From Desulforapulum autotrophicum (GTDB taxonomy: Bacteria > Desulfobacterota > Desulfobacteria > Desulfobacterales > Desulfolunaceae): a stretch of DNA of 64,000 bases. The notes under the pieces were generated by a model that was given only the letters and a program-made list of their open reading frames with translations, ran no database searches and was not told the DNA's origin. The DNA is taken from contig DYJE01000022.1 in NCBI GenBank assembly GCA_020723285.1, positions 1 through 64,000 of the forward strand, written 5' to 3'. Both the position numbers and the translations under genes were made by a program. Positions 8,038-27,703 of this stretch are shown in pieces; position 1 is the stretch's first letter; each line of letters begins with the position of its first letter.

Positions 8038-10800
8038 CTACACTTTTTTCAAGGCCGCAGATATTTGATTTTTCAGGGTTTCGAACCGTGTGGGTTTGAA
8101 CAGAACGCCCTGGACACCCAGCTCCCGGAGTTCTGTGATACGCGGATCTTCAGGGGCAAGGGACGACAGGATGATGATCCGCGTGTCCCTGTACCGTTCA
8201 TGGGACTTGATAAAATGAACCAGGGCGATGCCGTCCATTTTGGGCATGAGAATATCGGAGATCACCAGTTTGGGCTGGAAACTGCCGAGAAGAACCGAGG
8301 CTTCCAGGCCGTCTTTGGCGATGCGCAGCGCCCAGTCCGGGTAATGTTTCTGAAGATTGCGACTGGTGATTTTGGCAATGGTGGGATCATCTTCCACGAT
8401 AAGAACACGCATGTGTTCCAGTTCGGTTTCCATCATCACGGCTTCGCGTCCGCAGTGGGTGTTGATGATGTCCCGGATTTCTTCCCGTTTGAAGGGTTTG
8501 GCGACAAAACCGTCCATTCCCGCTTCGAGACAGGCTTCCCTGTCCGATTCGAACACGTTGGCCGTCATGGCCACCACAGGCGTCGTGATGCCTTTTTCCC
8601 GGATCAGCCGTGTGGCTTCAAGTCCGTCCATGCGCGGCATCTGCATGTCCATGAAAATGAGGTCGTATGTTTTTTCATTGACCATCTCCACGGCGATGAT
8701 GCCGTCAGCGGCAATTTCAGCGGCGTGCCCCATTTTCGAAAGCATTTTAACCGCAAGGGTCTGGTTGACCTTGTTGTCTTCGGCCACCAGGATCTGCATG
8801 GAAACGGGTTTTTCATGAACCACTTCCACTTCCGTGAGAAGGGGCTGCTGTTCGGCGGTCTCCACCATGCCAAGAGCCCGGTTGATCATGGACAGCAGCG
8901 ATTTCCGCCGGACCGGCTTGAACAGGTAACCTGAAAATCCGTTTTGCTCCACCATTTTGACGATGCCGCTGCGGGTGTCCGCCGTGATGGCGATGACCGG
9001 CGGAAGACGGTCCTTGAACGTTTCCCTTAAAAGCCCCATGAGCATGTAGCCGTCCACCTCGGGCATCATGATATCCAGAAGAATCACGGCCTCACTGCCG
9101 TCGGTCAGCCTCAGGGCTTCATCGGACGATGCGGCGGTTTTGGGAATCATGCCCAGGCGTTTCACCATGTCCGATTCAATGCGCAAAGCGTCGGGATTGT
9201 CATCCACGATCAGGCAGACCTTGCCGTCGAGATCGGCCTGAACGTCCCGTACCGGGCGTGATTCGCCCATGTCGGCTTTTTCGAACGTCACGGTGAAGTA
9301 AAAACGGGTTCCAACGCCGGGCTCGCTGTCCACAGACAGGCTGCCGCCCATGAGCCCCACCAGTTTCCGCGCGATGGTCAGGCCGAGGCCCGTTCCTCCG
9401 TATTTCCGCGTGGTGCTTCCGTCGGCCTGGGTGAAGGGATCGAAGATCTTGGTCATCTGCTCCGGGGTGAGTCCGATGCCCGTATCGATGACGGAGATTT
9501 CCACAAACAGCTGGCGGCCATCTTCGCCTTTGTCCCGGGCTGTGAGGATGATGTGTCCTTTTTCGGTGAATTTAACCGCATTGCTCAGATGGTTCATCAC
9601 GACCTGATGAAGCCGTGTGGGGTCGCCTTTCACCACCGCGTGGATATTTTCGTCGATTTCAACCAGCAGATCCACAGGCCCGGCGATTTTTGTCCGGACG
9701 ATGTCGCAGGCCCCGTGAAGCAGCTCTTCCAGATTGAAGGGAATGGATTCCAGATCCACCTTGTCCGATTCGATTTTTGTCAGATCGAGAATATCGTTGA
9801 TCAGCGAGAGCAGGGTTTCCGAACACTGGTTCACGGTGACCAGGGCTTCCCGCTGTTCCTGGGTGAGCTCCATGTCGAGCACCATGGTGGTGAACCCGAT
9901 GATGCCGTTGATGGGGGTCCTGATTTCATGGCTCATGTTGGCCAGGAACTGGCTCTTCGCCCGGTCGGCTTTTTCGGCGTCCTCTTTGGCTCTGGCCAGG
10001 TTGGCCGTTCGGGCGGTGACGAGATCGTTCAGCTTTTTGTTCAGAATCCAGCTTTCCAGGTGGACCGAGGCCCGTGAAAGGAGAAGGTCCCGGGTGAACG
10101 GCTTGGTGAGAAAGTCCGACGCCCCTGCCTTGAGAAGCCTGATTTCCGTGTTTTCCCCGCCCTGGGACGTCAGGAAAATCACGGGAATCCGTCCCAGGCG
10201 TTTATGTTTCCTGATCTGGGCGCACAGTTCCTCCCCGTTCATCACGGGCATGTGGAGATCGGTGATCACCAGGTCGATGCTGGCCCCAACTTCACTGTCA
10301 AGAATTTCCCAGGCGTTTTTACCGTTATCCGCGGTCAATACCTGGAAACCGGCGGGTTTGAGAGTGTCCGTGGCGATCTTGAGGATGAACTTGGCGTCGT
10401 CCACCACCAGGATGGTGGCACCGGCCAGATTGCGTTTGGATTCGTACAGGCCGCAGACCGCATCCACCAGTTCGGATTTTTCAAAGGGCGTCCGGATGAT
10501 CCGTGTGACGTCCGCTTCCCAGGCTTCCTCGATTTTACTGACTTCCTCGCTGTCCACAATGGCGAGAATGGGAAGGGGAACATGGCTGTCCGGCATGAAG
10601 ATCCGGGCTTCCCGGATGCTGCGGATCAGGGATATCATGGCGTCGGAATAGATGACCACGATGTCCGGAGCGTATTCGACGACCTTGTCCACGATCCGGT
10701 CTCCCGATTCATAGACCGCGATTTCCCGGTTGTCGCTGATGAGTTCATGGGCGATGAGCTTGGCGACGATTTTATTTTCACTGACTAGAAGTGTTTTCAT
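8038..10800 (-). CDS. hybrid histidine kinase with multiple receiver domains
   Basis: 920 residues. Order: a degenerate receiver-like fold (1-120) where the phosphoacceptor position reads IVVIYSDAM; a complete receiver (about 128-250, VITDLHMP, Asp about 181); HisKA ([16 protein letters not shown], His about 290); HATPase ([16 protein letters not shown]); then three more receivers with LLDIMMP (about 576), FMDMQMP (about 717) and VISDILMP (about 848). There is no transmembrane segment, so it is cytoplasmic. No HPt domain is present, so phosphotransfer to a separate HPt is expected. It starts 8 bases after the flhX stop, so it belongs to the end of the flagellar operon and may be a chemotaxis-like or motility control kinase (inference). 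Confidence 0.9.
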
Positions 10801-10808
10801 AAGGTTCG

Positions 10809-11084
10809 TTACACCTTCTGTTTTTTTTCGCGATTCAGGGTGTAGACAAAGGCCAGCAGTTCTGCCACAACCACATAAACGTCTGCCGGGACTTCCTGCT
10901 CGATGTCCAGTTTCGCCAGAACTTCCACCAGATCCGCGTCATCCTTGACGGGGATGCCGTGTTCTTTCGCGATTTCGATGATCCGTTCCGCCACCCGGCC
11001 CGACCCTTTGGCGGAAACCTTCGGCGCACGGTCTTTGTGAGGCTGGTATTTCAGGGCCACGGCTTTTTTCTGTTTTTTTTCCAT
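10809..11084 (-). CDS. flhX: FlhX, stand-alone FlhB cytoplasmic C-terminal homologue
   Basis: 91 residues, with AAGGAGG upstream of the ATG. The whole protein aligns with the part of FlhB after its autocleavage site: '[21 protein letters not shown]' matches 'VAISYKPMEMKAPRVVAKGAG' of the full-length FlhB encoded at 21399-22466, and the downstream [17 protein letters not shown] matches FlhB's GKEIPGDFY/AEILAYVF. The NPTH cleavage motif and membrane domain are absent. Such proteins (the FlhX/YlqH type) can stand in for the cleaved FlhB C-terminus in the export specificity switch. It lies 14 bases after a second FliK-like gene, its expected functional partner. Confidence 0.88.
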
Positions 11085-14265: not shown

Positions 14266-14577
14266 TCAGACCACCGTATTGAGCAGGCGGCCGGGGCCGT
14301 CGGGATCGGCGATATCTTCCATGGCGGCCCGGACTTTCATTTTACGTTCTTTCTTCCGGTCCCTCTTGAACCTGCCGCTGCCCGGCCGTTCCTGGGTCAG
14401 AATGACTTTTTCGGCTTCGTCCGCCTGGGCGATCACCGTCCGTTTTCTGTCATCTTCGGCCATGCGTTCGAACACCGTATTCTGTGCGGATTCGAGCACC
14501 GGATTTTTGATATTGTGCGAGTCCCTGATTACATCACCCTGCTGGATCACGATATTGAGATTCGGTATGGTTGTCAT
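14266..14577 (-). CDS. small conserved flagellar-operon protein, unknown
   Basis: 103 residues from ATG 14577, which has AAAGGA 10 bases upstream; an earlier in-frame ATG at 14586 is too close to that site. It is highly charged with a basic patch RFKRDRKKERKMKVRA (about 72-87) and no membrane segment. I do not recognise a domain. Its position between the FliL-like gene and the membrane-anchored protein, in the same direction, ties it to the flagellar operon. Confidence 0.6.
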   Translation of the reverse strand: MTTIPNLNIVIQQGDVIRDSHNIKNPVLESAQNTVFERMAEDDRKRTVIAQADEAEKVILTQERPGSGRFKRDRKKERKMKVRAAMEDIADPDGPGRLLNTVV

Positions 14578-14618
14578 GGCCCGCATCCTTTTTTCCGTTC
14601 GTGTGAGAGGCCTCCTTG

Positions 14619-16175
14619 CTATCCGGTTTCAAAATCGATGAATTCGAGGGTTGAAACCGTCCCCTGGGCAAGGGCCCCGTTCAAGGCATCCATGATCATG
14701 GTTTTCAGATCCGCTTCCACAACCGCGGTTTCGCCTTGTGAGGTCAGTACCTTGTTCATGACCTCATACACAATATTTCGGAAAAAAGGTTCGTATTCTT
14801 TAACTGGATTTTCAGGGGTTTCCGCAATCTGAAACGTCAGGGACAGGGAAATGTAAGACGAGCCCTTGCCCAGGGCCGGGGCCACCGCCACAAAGTCGTT
14901 CATGGTGACGGTATAGGTTTCGAGTATCGGGATGTCTGATTCACCGTGTCCTTCGGCATGCTGAATGTCCTGACCCTGTCCCTTTTCGGCGGTGTCGCGC
15001 ACGGTGCTTTGAACGTCACCGGTTTTCAGCCTGTAAACATAAAATGACCCTGCGCCCACAGCGGCAAGCAGACAGGCCACAGCCAGTCCTATCATCACTT
15101 TCTTTTTCGGAAAGGGTTTCTTTTCTTTTTTTTCCTTGGTTTTCTGAGGGGCTTCCACCTCATCGATGTCGAGTTTGTCAAGCTTCTCCAGGATCACCTG
15201 ATCGTGGAGATCGTCATCGGTTTTTTCCTTTTCCCGGTCATCCTCCTGCAACAGCCGGTCAATGTCTTCCTGGGATATCAGTTTGTCGGGTTCCTGGGAT
15301 TTGGCCGGGCCTTCTTCAGAGAAAGGCCGGGCCGAACTCAGAAGACGGTCGATATCCTCCTGGTCGATCAGGGTCGTTTCCTCTTCTTCCTCAGGCTCCT
15401 GGTATTTCCCCATCAGCAGTTTGTCGATATCGTCCTGGGATATCAGATTGCTTTCCTCGCCGCCCTCTTCGGCTTTACTGGCTGAAGGTCCGGCGGATTC
15501 TCCCGTGCCGTTGAGCAGACTGTCGATGTCCGCAGGGTTGATGATGTTGTCAACCGTCCCTGTATCGGCCATGGGAGCGGGGGCTTCGGCGGACTTCCCC
15601 GGTTTTTTTTTCACGTCTTTGTCCACACCGGCAAGAAGGGCGTCGATATCATCCTGGGTGATCAGGTCCGAATCGCTATCCGAATCGTCCGAAGATCGGG
15701 ATTCCGATTCCAGATCCGTTCCTGAAATCAGCGCCTTGATGTCTTCATCGGTGATGGAATCCGGGCTTTCTTCACGGTCAGCCCCGGTTTCGCCAACCTC
15801 CTCGGACAAGAGGAGTTTCCTGATGTCTTCCGGGGACACGAGATCCAGGTCTGCGAGACCGTCATCGGCGTCGTATACCGGCTCGGGTTCCGGAGTTTTC
15901 TTTTTTTTGGCGGGTTTATGGCTGGAAAGGAGGGCGTCAATATCCTCCTGGCTGACCAGGTCGTCGTCATTGGAGGCCTCCGGTGCCGGCTCGTCCATGG
16001 CGCTCCGTCCAAGGTTCAGGAGGGCGTCGATGTCTTCCTGGGTGATGATGGCCTCATCGTCTCCCCGGCCCGGTTCATCCTGTGACAGGGGGGCGGACCG
16101 AGCCTCATCCAGAAGACGGTCCAGTTCGTCCTGGGCGATGAAGCTGTCTTTGTATTTACTGTCCGCTAAAGCCAT
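14619..16175 (-). CDS. FliL-like membrane protein with ten FliM-type EIDALL motifs
   Basis: 518 residues. ATG 16175 overlaps the fliA stop region (TGATATG). The cytoplasmic N-terminus (1-356) is acidic and contains ten spaced copies of a FliM N-terminal-like peptide, starting at residues of about 12, 43, 73, 112, 140, 171, 211, 244, 269 and 299 (for example ITQEDIDALL, VSQEDIDALL, ISQDDIDKLL, ISQEDIDRLL). A basic stretch (about 347-359), one transmembrane helix (about 359-380) and a periplasmic FliL-like domain (about 415-518, ending STLEFIDFETG, compare RNIYFTDFLIM of FliL at 26794) follow. FliM here begins ILTQEEVDSLL, the peptide that in the FliM family binds CheY-P. A usual FliL has a short N-terminus, so this one is about 300 residues longer. 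Multivalent CheY binding is an inference. Confidence 0.82.
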   Translation of the reverse strand: MALADSKYKDSFIAQDELDRLLDEARSAPLSQDEPGRGDDEAIITQEDIDALLNLGRSAMDEPAPEASNDDDLVSQEDIDALLSSHKPAKKKKTPEPEPVYDADDGLADLDLVSPEDIRKLLLSEEVGETGADREESPDSITDEDIKALISGTDLESESRSSDDSDSDSDLITQDDIDALLAGVDKDVKKKPGKSAEAPAPMADTGTVDNIINPADIDSLLNGTGESAGPSASKAEEGGEESNLISQDDIDKLLMGKYQEPEEEEETTLIDQEDIDRLLSSARPFSEEGPAKSQEPDKLISQEDIDRLLQEDDREKEKTDDDLHDQVILEKLDKLDIDEVEAPQKTKEKKEKKPFPKKKVMIGLAVACLLAAVGAGSFYVYRLKTGDVQSTVRDTAEKGQGQDIQHAEGHGESDIPILETYTVTMNDFVAVAPALGKGSSYISLSLTFQIAETPENPVKEYEPFFRNIVYEVMNKVLTSQGETAVVEADLKTMIMDALNGALAQGTVSTLEFIDFETG

Positions 16176-16176
16176 A

Positions 16177-16944
16177 TCAGTTCTTCCGGTAATCTTTGAT
16201 CCGTGATTTCAGTTTGATCAGGGCCATGGTGTGGATCTGGCAGATCCGGGATTCGGTCAGTTCCATGACGCTCCCGATTTCTTTGAGTGTCAGCTCGTCA
16301 TAGTAATACAGTGAAATCACCAGCTGCTCTTTTTCCGTCAGTTTGCGGATGGCTTTGGCCAGAACACTTTTCAGCTCTTTCTGGATCAGTTCGTCCGCAG
16401 GGTCCTCGTCGCTTTTCATGCCCTCGTGGAACGTGGCTCCCGGTTCTCCGCCGTTGTCGTTGTTCTTGATGTAGTCGTCAAGGCTCAGAAGGGCGGCACA
16501 GTGAATGTCCGAAAGCGTCTTGAGGTAAACGTCCAGGGGCTGCCCCATTTCCTCGGCGATTTCCATGTCGCTTGCGGGGCGGCCTTCCCTTGCTTCCACA
16601 ATCTGCACGGCTTTTTCAATGCCCTGGATTTTTTTACGCATGGACCGGGAGTACCAGTCCATGCTTCGGAGTTCGTCGAGGATAGCCCCTTTGATGCGGT
16701 ACTGGGCGTAAGTTTTAAGCCCGACGTTTTTTTTGGGGTCGTACTTGTCCACCGCGTCGATGAGGCCCAGGGAACCGGCGCTCACCAGCTCGTCGAACAC
16801 CACGCTGGAGGGAATGCGTGACGCCACCCGTCCGGCGAGGTATTTCACCAGATAGGCGTATTTGGCGATCATGGCCTCCCGCTCTCTGGGGCTGAAATAA
16901 CCGCTCTGGGTTTTGCTTTCTGTTTTTTCGTATTCCTGGATCAT
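16177..16944 (-). CDS. fliA: flagellar sigma factor FliA (sigma-28)
   Basis: 255 residues. Region 2 (about 25-95) contains VASRIPSSVVFDELVSAGSLGLIDAV (start of it visible as 'FDELVSAGSLGLIDA') and FKTYA-like 'GLKTYAQYRIKGAILDELRS', diagnostic for the FliA/WhiG group. Region 3 (about 110-180) and region 4 (about 195-250, 'LTLKEIGSVMELTESRICQ' helix-turn-helix) are complete. It directs RNA polymerase to late flagellar and chemotaxis promoters. It follows flhG and overlaps fliL2 translationally. No strong ribosome-binding site precedes ATG 16944. The anti-sigma factor FlgM is not in the window. Confidence 0.96.
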   Translation of the reverse strand: MIQEYEKTESKTQSGYFSPREREAMIAKYAYLVKYLAGRVASRIPSSVVFDELVSAGSLGLIDAVDKYDPKKNVGLKTYAQYRIKGAILDELRSMDWYSRSMRKKIQGIEKAVQIVEAREGRPASDMEIAEEMGQPLDVYLKTLSDIHCAALLSLDDYIKNNDNGGEPGATFHEGMKSDEDPADELIQKELKSVLAKAIRKLTEKEQLVISLYYYDELTLKEIGSVMELTESRICQIHTMALIKLKSRIKDYRKN

Positions 16945-17014: not shown

Positions 17015-17905
17015 TTACCTCACCCTCATCAAACGCTGCATGAAAAACTTGATGTTTCCGTCGAGATCCGTGCGCCTGGGTGATACCGCGAGTTTTTCCG
17101 CCAGCTGGGCCACCGCCCTGGCCGCCTGGGACTCGGGGAATTTTTCCAGAAAAGGCGCCCGTGCGATGACCGATTCCCTGACCTTGGCGTCCGCCGGAAC
17201 AAAACCCATGTATTCCGTGATGGCACCTTTCAAAAACCGCTCCGCCGCCTGACTCAGTGTATAGTAAACGGCCTTGGCTTCATCCAGCCCGCTGACCATG
17301 TTGACCAGAATTTTAAAACGTTTCGCGCCGTGACCGTAGAGAACCTTGATGATACCGTAGGCATCGGTGATTGACGTGGGCTCACCTGTAACAACAACTA
17401 TACACTCTTCCGCCGCTAAATTAAAGTAAATAACATTGGTGGAAATTCCGGCGGCCGTATCCACCAGAACCACATCGAACAGATTTTCAATGGTTTCGAA
17501 TTCGGAAAGAAGGGTGAGCTTCTGGCTTTCCGACAGTTCGCTCATGCTTTCGTCGCCGGAAAGAGCCGGGATAATGGAAATGCCCGGACGGATTTCCGTG
17601 ATCACCTCGGTGAGTTCCTTTTCGCCGGAAATCACATGGGCGATGGTGAACTGGGGGCGTACACCGAAAACGATGTCGATGTTGGCAAGCCCCAGGTCCC
17701 CGTCGAAAATCAGGACCCGTTTCCCCAGACGGCTGAAGGCCAGGGACAGATTGGCCACCAGATTGGTCTTGCCCACGCCGCCTTTGCCGCTGGTGATGGA
17801 AAACACCCTGGGACCGTCGTCATGGACGGGTCCTTTCTTTGTGACTGTCATGCGCGATTCCTTTGCCATGATTTTCCTTAAATGACTGGCCTGATCCACG
17901 TTCAC
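17015..17905 (-). CDS. flhG: FlhG (FleN/YlxH) MinD-like ATPase
   Basis: 296 residues, GTG start at 17905 with AGGAG at 5-base spacing. The N-terminal DQASHLR motif (4-10) is the FlhG segment that activates the FlhF GTPase. The deviant Walker A GKGGVGKT (40-47), DGDLGLANID and VLVDTAAG motifs, and a C-terminal amphipathic tail, are typical. It controls number and position of flagella at the pole with FlhF. It follows flhF directly (52 bases), the standard flhA-flhF-flhG-fliA order of polar flagellates. Confidence 0.95.
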   Translation of the reverse strand: MNVDQASHLRKIMAKESRMTVTKKGPVHDDGPRVFSITSGKGGVGKTNLVANLSLAFSRLGKRVLIFDGDLGLANIDIVFGVRPQFTIAHVISGEKELTEVITEIRPGISIIPALSGDESMSELSESQKLTLLSEFETIENLFDVVLVDTAAGISTNVIYFNLAAEECIVVVTGEPTSITDAYGIIKVLYGHGAKRFKILVNMVSGLDEAKAVYYTLSQAAERFLKGAITEYMGFVPADAKVRESVIARAPFLEKFPESQAARAVAQLAEKLAVSPRRTDLDGNIKFFMQRLMRVR

Positions 17906-25802: not shown

Positions 25803-26783
25803 TTATCTCGTATAGAGTTTACGTTCCACCCTGAACGCCTGAAAGCCCCGCTGGATTCCCGCGTAGCCTTCAAGTTTGGGGTAATTGTCGATGAGGCCTT
25901 TCAACGTTTCCTCGGCGTCCTGGTCCAGCTCGATGATGTCGCCGGGCTTCAGGTAAATCAGACGTTCGCCGGTGATTTCCGTGGTCCCCAGCTGAACGGC
26001 CAGATCCACTTCGGAATCCAGGATGATTTCTTTGAGACGCTTCTGCCAGGTGTAGTCCACATCTTCCACTTCGGCCTGGAATCCGGCGGACAGCTTGCCG
26101 CGCAGAGGTTCGATCATGGCATAGGGCAGGCAGACGATGAGGGTTCCGGCGGTCTGTTCCAGTTCCACCTCGAACCGGGTCACGATGACCAGGTCCGTGG
26201 GCATGACGATGGTGGCGAACTGGGGGTTCACTTCGGACCGGACCATGGTGGTTTTCACCGGCTCCACGGGGAACCAGGCGGTTTCAAGGTCTTTCAGGCA
26301 GGCCACCACCACCTTGTTGATCATCACTTCCTCGATGGCCGTGAATTCCCGGCCTTCGATACGGGCCTTGGACGTTCCCTTGCCGCCGAAAAACTGATCG
26401 ATGAGGCTGAAAACCAGCTGGCTTTCAAGGACGAGCAGACCGTGCCCGCGCAACGGTTCCATGCGGAACACATGGAGGCTGGTGGGCACGGGAAGGCTTC
26501 GCCCGAACTCGGAGAATTTCAGGGTGTCCAGGGATTCGGCGCTGATGTCCACGTTGGTGTGGAGCATGCCGGTCATGCTGGCCCGGATCTCCCGTGCGAA
26601 ACGTTCGTTGATCACTTCAAAGGTGGGCATGCGCCCGCGGATCACCTGGTCCTGATTGGTGAAATCGTAGGTCACCACGCCTTCCGGTTCCGGGGCTTTG
26701 GTGTCTTTTTCCGTTTCCACCTTGCCCGCGCTCAATCCGGAAAGCAGACTATCGACTTCTTCCTGAGTTAAAATATCGCCCAT
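25803..26783 (-). CDS. fliM: FliM, flagellar motor switch protein
   Basis: 326 residues. The N-terminal CheY-binding peptide ILTQEEVDSLLSG (4-16) is present. A CheC-like middle domain (about 45-240) and a C-terminal SpoA domain (about 250-320, GDIIELDQDAEE) follow. Full length. It is the second gene of the sigma-54 operon starting at fliL. Its N-terminal motif is the reference for the ten repeats in the protein at 14619-16175. Confidence 0.97.
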   Translation of the reverse strand: MGDILTQEEVDSLLSGLSAGKVETEKDTKAPEPEGVVTYDFTNQDQVIRGRMPTFEVINERFAREIRASMTGMLHTNVDISAESLDTLKFSEFGRSLPVPTSLHVFRMEPLRGHGLLVLESQLVFSLIDQFFGGKGTSKARIEGREFTAIEEVMINKVVVACLKDLETAWFPVEPVKTTMVRSEVNPQFATIVMPTDLVIVTRFEVELEQTAGTLIVCLPYAMIEPLRGKLSAGFQAEVEDVDYTWQKRLKEIILDSEVDLAVQLGTTEITGERLIYLKPGDIIELDQDAEETLKGLIDNYPKLEGYAGIQRGFQAFRVERKLYTR

Positions 26784-26793
26784 ACGTCATCGC

Positions 26794-27429
26794 CTACATG
26801 ATAAGAAAGTCGGTGAAATAGATGTTACGCACCTTGCCAGTTTCAAGGCGGTTGTTAAGTTCCGCGATCAGCGCCATTTTCAGCCGGATTTTACCTTCGG
26901 CGCCTTCCAGTTCCGTCAGGGTTTTTGCCGCGATCACAGATCTCAGCGCCCCCAGGAGCATGTCTTTCCGGTCATTGAATTCAAGGGCCAGCTCCGGCCG
27001 GTCCATCTCCACATGGATATCGGTTTTCAGGGTTTTTTCATGCTCCGGGTCCCCCATTTTGATTTCAAGGGACGGCAGGGTGTACACATGGTCGAACACG
27101 TGAAGCTCGGCTTTTTCTTCACCGTGGCCTTCTTTCCCTTCCTCTGCCGGTTTTTCTCCGTGGCCGCCGTCATCTTTTTTTTCGCCGTGGGCATCACCGC
27201 CGTGTTCACCTTCAGCCTTGGATTCTCCATGGGTTCCGGATTCTTTCCCCGTTTCCTCGGCGGCGTGTTTGGATTTGAAAAAAAACAGGGTCCCGGCCAC
27301 TCCGCCGCCCAGGCAGACCACAAGGACGATGCCCACGATAATGAGCAGCTTTTTGTTTTTGAGCAGCCCTTTTTTTTCCGGAGTTCCGGCTTCATCCGCC
27401 GGTTCTTCCTGTTTTTTCTTTTTCGCCAT
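26794..27429 (-). CDS. fliL: FliL, flagellar basal-body associated protein
   Basis: 211 residues from ATG 27429; the frame is open further upstream but overlaps the sigma-54 promoter. A Lys/Glu-rich cytoplasmic start, one transmembrane helix (about 28-50), a linker rich in His, Gly and Glu (about 55-110), and the FliL domain ending RNIYFTDFLIM. It associates with the stator/basal body. First gene of the long flagellar operon. The His/Glu-rich linker is unusual and might bind metal. Confidence 0.93.
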   Translation of the reverse strand: MAKKKKQEEPADEAGTPEKKGLLKNKKLLIIVGIVLVVCLGGGVAGTLFFFKSKHAAEETGKESGTHGESKAEGEHGGDAHGEKKDDGGHGEKPAEEGKEGHGEEKAELHVFDHVYTLPSLEIKMGDPEHEKTLKTDIHVEMDRPELALEFNDRKDMLLGALRSVIAAKTLTELEGAEGKIRLKMALIAELNNRLETGKVRNIYFTDFLIM

Positions 27430-27526
27430 GGTTCCGCCTGTGGCTTGAATGATGTCTGAGAATCCAGCTTGACTGAGAGTTTTAAGAGGCGCAGCTCTCC
27501 CGGGCATGATAACGAAACGGAAGAAC

Positions 27527-27542
27527 TGCAACCCTTGTGCCA
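27527..27542 (-). promoter_or_regulatory. sigma-54 (-24/-12) promoter of fliL operon
   Basis: Minus strand reads TGGCACAAGGGTTGCA: consensus TGGCAC and TTGCA elements with GG and GC exactly 10 bases apart. About 100 bases upstream of the fliL ATG, leaving a reasonable leader. Confidence 0.87.
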
Positions 27543-27703
27543 ATCAAAAATCACGGTCTGAAGACGCGACACTCGTTTTTTTTATGAGTCGTTACCGGGC
27601 ATTCTGAAGATATTTGAGGCATTTAAAAGCAGGGAGAATTGACCGGGACAGTATACGGGCTGAAGATGACGTTAAACCGGTCCTGTCAAAAAAATGGCGG
27701 AAT

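Follow-up and report, generated by a model that had tools for sequence, protein, structure and literature searches.

A FliL paralogue of Desulfobacterales with an array of FliM-type docking motifs in its predicted cytoplasmic part

The N-terminus of FliM is the docking peptide for phosphorylated CheY (CheY-P), and CheY is the partner common to FliM and to the phosphatase CheZ. To our knowledge, models of chemotaxis give the motor no CheY-P receiver other than FliM (together with FliN). The FliM peptide, known as the EIDAL motif, follows the pattern S-Q-x-[DE]-[IV]-D-x-L-L; in E. coli, its Asp12-type aspartate pairs with Lys119 of CheY (PMC7012829). The C-terminal region of CheZ is described as CheY-binding as well (PMC7750401). 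Apart from FliM and CheZ, docking motifs are known only sporadically, on FliN/FliY: in Bacillus and Campylobacter, EIDAL motifs on these proteins represent additional docking motifs on another motor protein (PMC6946799). FliL proteins (PF03748; Vibrio 6ahp/6ahq, H. pylori 7sgn) have one transmembrane (TM) helix and a stomatin-like periplasmic domain, and Vibrio FliL forms decameric rings with a stator-sized hole (PMC6426602).

In the window, i.e. the whole stretch of 64,000 nucleotides of Desulforapulum autotrophicum that was analysed, the docking peptide and a FliL domain are found on the same polypeptide. The open reading frame at 14619..16175 (minus strand, as are all the window features given below) encodes a protein of 518 aa, here called FliL2. 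It consists of about 355 acidic, disordered and predicted cytoplasmic residues, which carry ten motifs separated by low-complexity spacers, a TM helix at residues 357-384 (15024..15107; hydrophobic, and predicted as a helix with pLDDT about 86) and a periplasmic FliL domain at residues 420-518 (14622..14918), recognised from Foldseek matches and from hhalign comparison to canonical FliL.

The assignment to FliL was evaluated at the level of both sequence and fold. The window protein scored 16.0 bits against Pfam FliL, under the cutoff of 24.6, and a sequence search of the array protein against the PDB gave no match. Its orthologues in L002, L026 and L010 exceeded the same cutoff, with 26.6, 31.0 and 27.2 bits, respectively. 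Moreover, the profile of the C-terminal domain retrieved canonical FliL proteins, and hhalign aligned the profile to canonical FliL with a probability of 97%. The structure model was made from 27 sequences; with a mean pLDDT of 61, its details can be trusted for the TM helix and the periplasmic domain only. C-terminal to the array, it contains the single TM helix followed by a beta-beta-alpha-alpha-beta domain. The eleven top-ranking Foldseek matches from the PDB are, without exception, FliL structures of H. pylori, C. jejuni or Vibrio (7sgn/9hmf/6ahp/6ahq). The fold match is moderate (TM-score 0.62-0.72, E 1.8e-05 to 1.7e-03). Because the relatives exceed the Pfam cutoff and the fold matches, we consider the window protein a member of the FliL family. 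The single TM helix is a trait of this family, whereas the cytoplasmic tail, which is short in the family and limited to residues 1-17 in Vibrio FliL (PMC6426602), here reaches about 355 residues with ten predicted docking helices.

The model contains exactly ten short helices in the cytoplasmic part, one per motif, of moderate confidence and joined by low-confidence linkers. The copies are 25-40 residues apart and share the consensus LISQ[DE]DIDxLL. From the N-terminus, they are motif 1, FIAQDELDRLL (16110..16142; residues 12-22, model helix 15-27); motif 2, IITQEDIDALL (16017..16049; residues 43-53, helix 46-57); motif 3, LVSQEDIDALL (15927..15959; residues 73-83, helix 76-84); motif 4, LVSPEDIRKLL (15810..15842; residues 112-122, helix 115-123); motif 5, SITDEDIKALI (15726..15758; residues 140-150, helix 143-150); motif 6, LITQDDIDALL (15633..15665; residues 171-181, helix 174-181); motif 7, IINPADIDSLL (15513..15545; residues 211-221, helix 214-221); motif 8, LISQDDIDKLL (15414..15446; residues 244-254, helix 247-254); motif 9, LIDQEDIDRLL (15339..15371; residues 269-279, helix 272-280); and motif 10, LISQEDIDRLL (15249..15281; residues 299-309, helix 302-310).

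The motifs were scored with a matrix built from 541 instances in 75 proteins. Of the window copies, seven score strongly, with 19-34 bits, two reach an intermediate 16-18 bits, and a single one is weak, with 8. Three of the ten are degenerate: copies 4 (VSPEDIRKLL) and 7 (INPADIDSLL) are the weaker ones and copy 5 (ITDEDIKALI) is poor, the Asp equivalent to FliM Asp12, partner of CheY Lys119, being replaced by Arg in copy 4 and by Lys in copy 5. The array follows the consensus S/T-Q-x-[DE]-[IV]-D-x-L-L, and the FliM and CheZ peptides score in an equal range or lower. Among twenty window proteins compared, the only other comparable peptide was the FliM N-terminus, with 15 bits; genome-wide, a pattern search found the motif in the array gene (six exact matches) and in FliM only, the remainder being noise. 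When the cytoplasmic part was shuffled 20,000 times, 56 shuffles contained one match and none contained more, so an origin of the ten motifs by chance or composition is rejected. A recent DNA repeat was also considered and rejected: no repeat was detected at the DNA level, and the window copies use different synonymous codons, thus the array is not a recent DNA repeat.

FliM itself is encoded at 25803..26783 (Pfam FliM, 223.7 bits) and starts with MGDILTQEEVDSLL, which has the same motif pattern as the array; an ordinary FliL without array lies at 26794..27543 (Pfam FliL, 48.2 bits). A sequence-only reading of this stretch had reported ten spaced copies in the region 15249-16142, their likeness to the FliM N-terminal peptide, a membrane-anchored FliL homologue as their carrier and a second, ordinary FliL at 26794. 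All four claims agree with our results, the motifs spanning residues 12-309 (window 16142 down to 15249). In comparison with FliM, which has one N-terminal copy, the window has ten internal copies on another protein, mostly with DDID in place of DEVD.

The array gene is embedded in a flagellar cluster with the order fliL-fliM-fliN-fliOPQR-flhB-flhA-flhF-flhG-fliA-[array]-small protein-DUF6115-fliK. FliL2 is therein a second paralogue, placed after fliA, besides the ordinary fliL. The gene for the sigma factor FliA (16177..16944) is directly upstream of the array gene, its stop codon nearly touching the array start codon, and flhG (17015..17905) is located two genes upstream. The cluster, with the array, is kept in about 50 loci of Desulfobacter, Desulfobacula, Desulfamplus, Desulfotignum, Desulfospira, Desulfoluna and others, and the ordinary fliL precedes fliM wherever the locus extends that far. 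Three further genes of the region were observed. The small protein (14266-14586; 106 residues, no Pfam match) directly follows FliL2 in many loci. A stand-alone FlhB C-terminal-domain protein of 91 aa (10809-11084), located after fliK, is conserved in the order, and a hybrid histidine kinase (8038-10800), which contains four to five receiver domains, stands at the end of the flagellar cluster, as it also does in L047.

In the tree of FlhG and FliA, all 48 array genomes fall in one clade (support 0.82), which includes zero array-less members. The sequence-only reading had asked whether the copy number varies among relatives and had taken absence of the array from close relatives with unchanged motility control as evidence against its proposal: among the 48 clade members the motifs range from 1 to 16 (median 7), and every genome (48/48) retains at least one. 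Other clades of the order have, at this position of the cluster, a FliL paralogue of 157-380 residues with the TM helix and the domain and no motif. The presence of this paralogue beyond the array clade, together with the single array clade, indicates that the second FliL is old and that the array was gained once in the order and then kept. Two side observations concern this slot. In L139, L195, L192 and L134, mostly from CheZ-bearing families, it contains an F[ST]G[ND]EL[DS]E repeat, in up to five copies, and no SQDDID motif. In L141 and L143 (G308, G377), from an array-bearing genus, we found CheZ and an array-less flagellar cluster of another clade, apparently acquired by transfer of the flagellar cluster.

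The best evidence for the function of the array is, as far as sequences can indicate, that the CheZ phosphatases of the order end in the same peptide. In L144, the last residues of CheZ are VHSQDEVDALLKEFGF, aligned with VASQDQVDDLLDSLGF at the C-terminus of E. coli CheZ (chain 1kmi_Z, E 2.4e-15), and the CheZ-like proteins of array-bearing genomes terminate in KISQENIDALLSEYGID. The motif of the array is thus that of both the FliM N-terminus and the CheZ C-terminus, with the difference that in CheZ a single copy is joined to a phosphatase domain. The CheY of the genome is identical to that of E. coli at 70/125 positions. PMC8225110 lists eight residues that contact FliM; six of them are kept (A90, K92, Y106, V108, K119 and K122), and the remaining two are conservatively altered (I95V and A99V). 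Furthermore, CheA was found in 51/52 sequence-checked array genomes (hand tally), with no match in the search of G009, which is 92% complete. In the array motifs, the residue right before Ile is Asp (92%), and the FliM of the order has Glu there; on this basis, the specificity of the array could differ from that of FliM, DDID being preferred over [DE]E[VI]D. Covariation between FliM and the array was dropped as a partner test, the FliM N-termini being too invariant.

On these grounds, we lean towards FliL2 being a motor-anchored, multivalent array that docks CheY-P, in which the duplicated FliL holds a local pool of the signal, and we consider this account probable by a narrow measure. In this account, CheY binding, the stator location and the effect on switching are inferred. 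The short cytoplasmic tail of a duplicated FliL would have lengthened into a flexible tether. Its ten docking helices, of the FliM-N/CheZ-C type, would each bind CheY with preference for the phosphorylated form. The FliL domain would serve as the membrane anchor of the tether and place it at the stators; FliL2 is not the canonical FliL, therefore this location is assumed. If FliL2 forms a ring like that of Vibrio FliL, from tens to about 100 weak CheY-P sites would be placed beside the C-ring and the switch. Such dense, weak sites would most likely retain CheY-P near the motor as a local pool and delay its loss from there, and the pool would raise the effective CheY-P concentration and smooth or prolong the signal at FliM. 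The same arrangement could also work as a clutch or brake, with array-bound CheY-P altering the engagement or the speed of the stators via FliL2 and not via FliM. The link of FliL with stator function and its stator-sized rings (PMC6426602), with the array on the same polypeptide, speak for this, but one docking site would be enough for a switch, and ten sites, with a copy number free to range from 1 to 16, look like capacity; a clutch is hence unlikely.

Arrays of the motif are also found on other proteins. In two Verrucomicrobia metagenome-assembled genomes (MAGs), soluble proteins with about ten to >20 motifs are directly followed by a response-regulator gene, which encodes a receiver-HD protein in L088, while in L066 the receiver domain was identified and the HD part was read from the sequence. 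Overall, the verrucomicrobial soluble arrays have about 8 to >20 motifs (L066 9140-12142, L088 3-1106, L253 1489-3219), and 2/3 array-bearing loci have a receiver-domain gene directly after the array (L066 and L088). One relative has eight motifs and no receiver-domain neighbour; in another, the scaffold is present and bears no more than one degenerate copy. As a side observation, an MptE-like/DUF115-type gene adjoins the array in L066 and L253. The L097 protein of Nitrospirae combines an array and a TM helix with a further domain; it was rejected as a FliL array, the hhalign probability of its C-terminal domain against FliL being 0.3%. FliM is present in the Verrucomicrobia and Nitrospirae array genomes.

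Elsewhere in Desulfobacterota, there are small soluble proteins of 102-133 aa with two to four motifs (L230 396-785, L231 4946-5254, L232 4155-4472, L233 4524-4829), arrays combined with a TM helix and an Ig-like region, and others. In the small proteins, the last motif is close to the C-terminus, as in CheZ. In L225 and L226, LGQDDLDALLAEL arrays, which may or may not be related to the docking motifs, occur with a differing C-terminal helix region. A FliN with two motif copies is found in L234/L235. As in the FliY/FliN proteins described previously, these are one or two copies on a rotor protein, whereas FliL2 carries a long membrane-anchored array. The arrays beyond FliL2 are to be read as leads, coming from MAGs where contamination is possible. 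Among these leads, the sequences point to a possible second origin of the array in flagellated Verrucomicrobia, on a soluble protein unrelated to FliL; with the receiver-domain genes next to two of the three loci, this speaks for CheY docking.

A different partner has also to be considered. The MinD-like ATPase FlhG contacts FliM through the FliM N-terminus during C-ring assembly (PMC12826062), and the array could dock FlhG and not CheY. FlhG would then be gathered at finished motors, and the flagellar number would be set or the repression of flagellar genes relieved. As stated above, flhG is two genes upstream of the array, and wherever a Desulfobacterales locus extends over this region, it is found together with the array; yet FlhG is equally present in array-less genomes, and the verrucomicrobial arrays are twice linked to a receiver-domain gene. 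Moreover, CheZ has the same peptide, and we know of no binding of CheZ to FlhG. For these reasons, we regard FlhG as a rather unlikely partner. The sequence-only reading had proposed CheY as the partner without considering FlhG, which also binds the FliM N-terminus. That proposal stands in part: the CheZ peptide and the FliM-binding surface of CheY lend it independent support, FlhG has to be added as a competing candidate, and the roles of sink, buffer or local concentrator that it suggested are conjectural.

Docking of CheY-P could also remove the signal, the array acting as a sink where CheZ is absent. Coherently with this, there is no CheZ match in G000 or its family, and all the sequence-checked genomes with a strong CheZ have an array-less FliL2. 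However, the split between CheZ and the array tracks one clade boundary and one apparent cluster transfer, so this contrast counts few independent events. In several families, moreover, genomes with arrays also encode CheZ-like proteins, and non-catalytic binding only buffers, which makes a sink quite improbable.

The conservation of the motifs also speaks for the docking account, which we prefer. In 15 ortholog pairs, identity was 72-100% in the motifs, 35-82% in the spacers and 44-91% in the TM helix and periplasmic part; the motif residues were more conserved than the spacers in 15/15 usable pairs and, with a single exception, also more than the TM and periplasmic part. With an anchor that leaves the first four residues free, S and Q still stood at 79% and 91%, respectively, so the motif pattern was not created by the expression used for the search. 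A generic helix serving in C-ring assembly, in export or in self-association, or else a functionless repeat subject to drift, would fit the acidic low-complexity spacers and the near-identical DNA units of some relatives, which represent fresh tandem duplications, but it is very improbable in light of this conservation, of the S and Q frequencies, of the synonymous codon variation among the window copies and of the motif retention in the whole clade.

In the literature searched, we found no description of a FliL joined with CheY-docking motifs or repeats, in agreement with the sequence-only reading, which knew of no system with such a design. What would be new here is a FliL paralogue with the known docking peptide in multivalent form. 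More broadly, and tentatively, at a little short of an even chance, polyvalent CheY-docking arrays may have evolved at least twice on unrelated scaffolds, and in one large clade the stator-side FliL may be the motor's own CheY-P reservoir, with the repeat number tuning its capacity. If true, chemotaxis would have a new level of control, interposed between the diffusion of CheY-P and the switch at FliM. Up to sixteen extra sites beside the switch would change the local signal concentration, the cooperativity and the switching time, and the natural series of 1 to about 16 sites would offer a test bed for multivalency in signalling. It would also assign a function to the second FliL that is conserved in Desulfobacterales-type bacteria, among them the magnetotactic genus Desulfamplus. 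The retention of the array throughout the clade suggests an undescribed way to gather the swimming signal at the motor.
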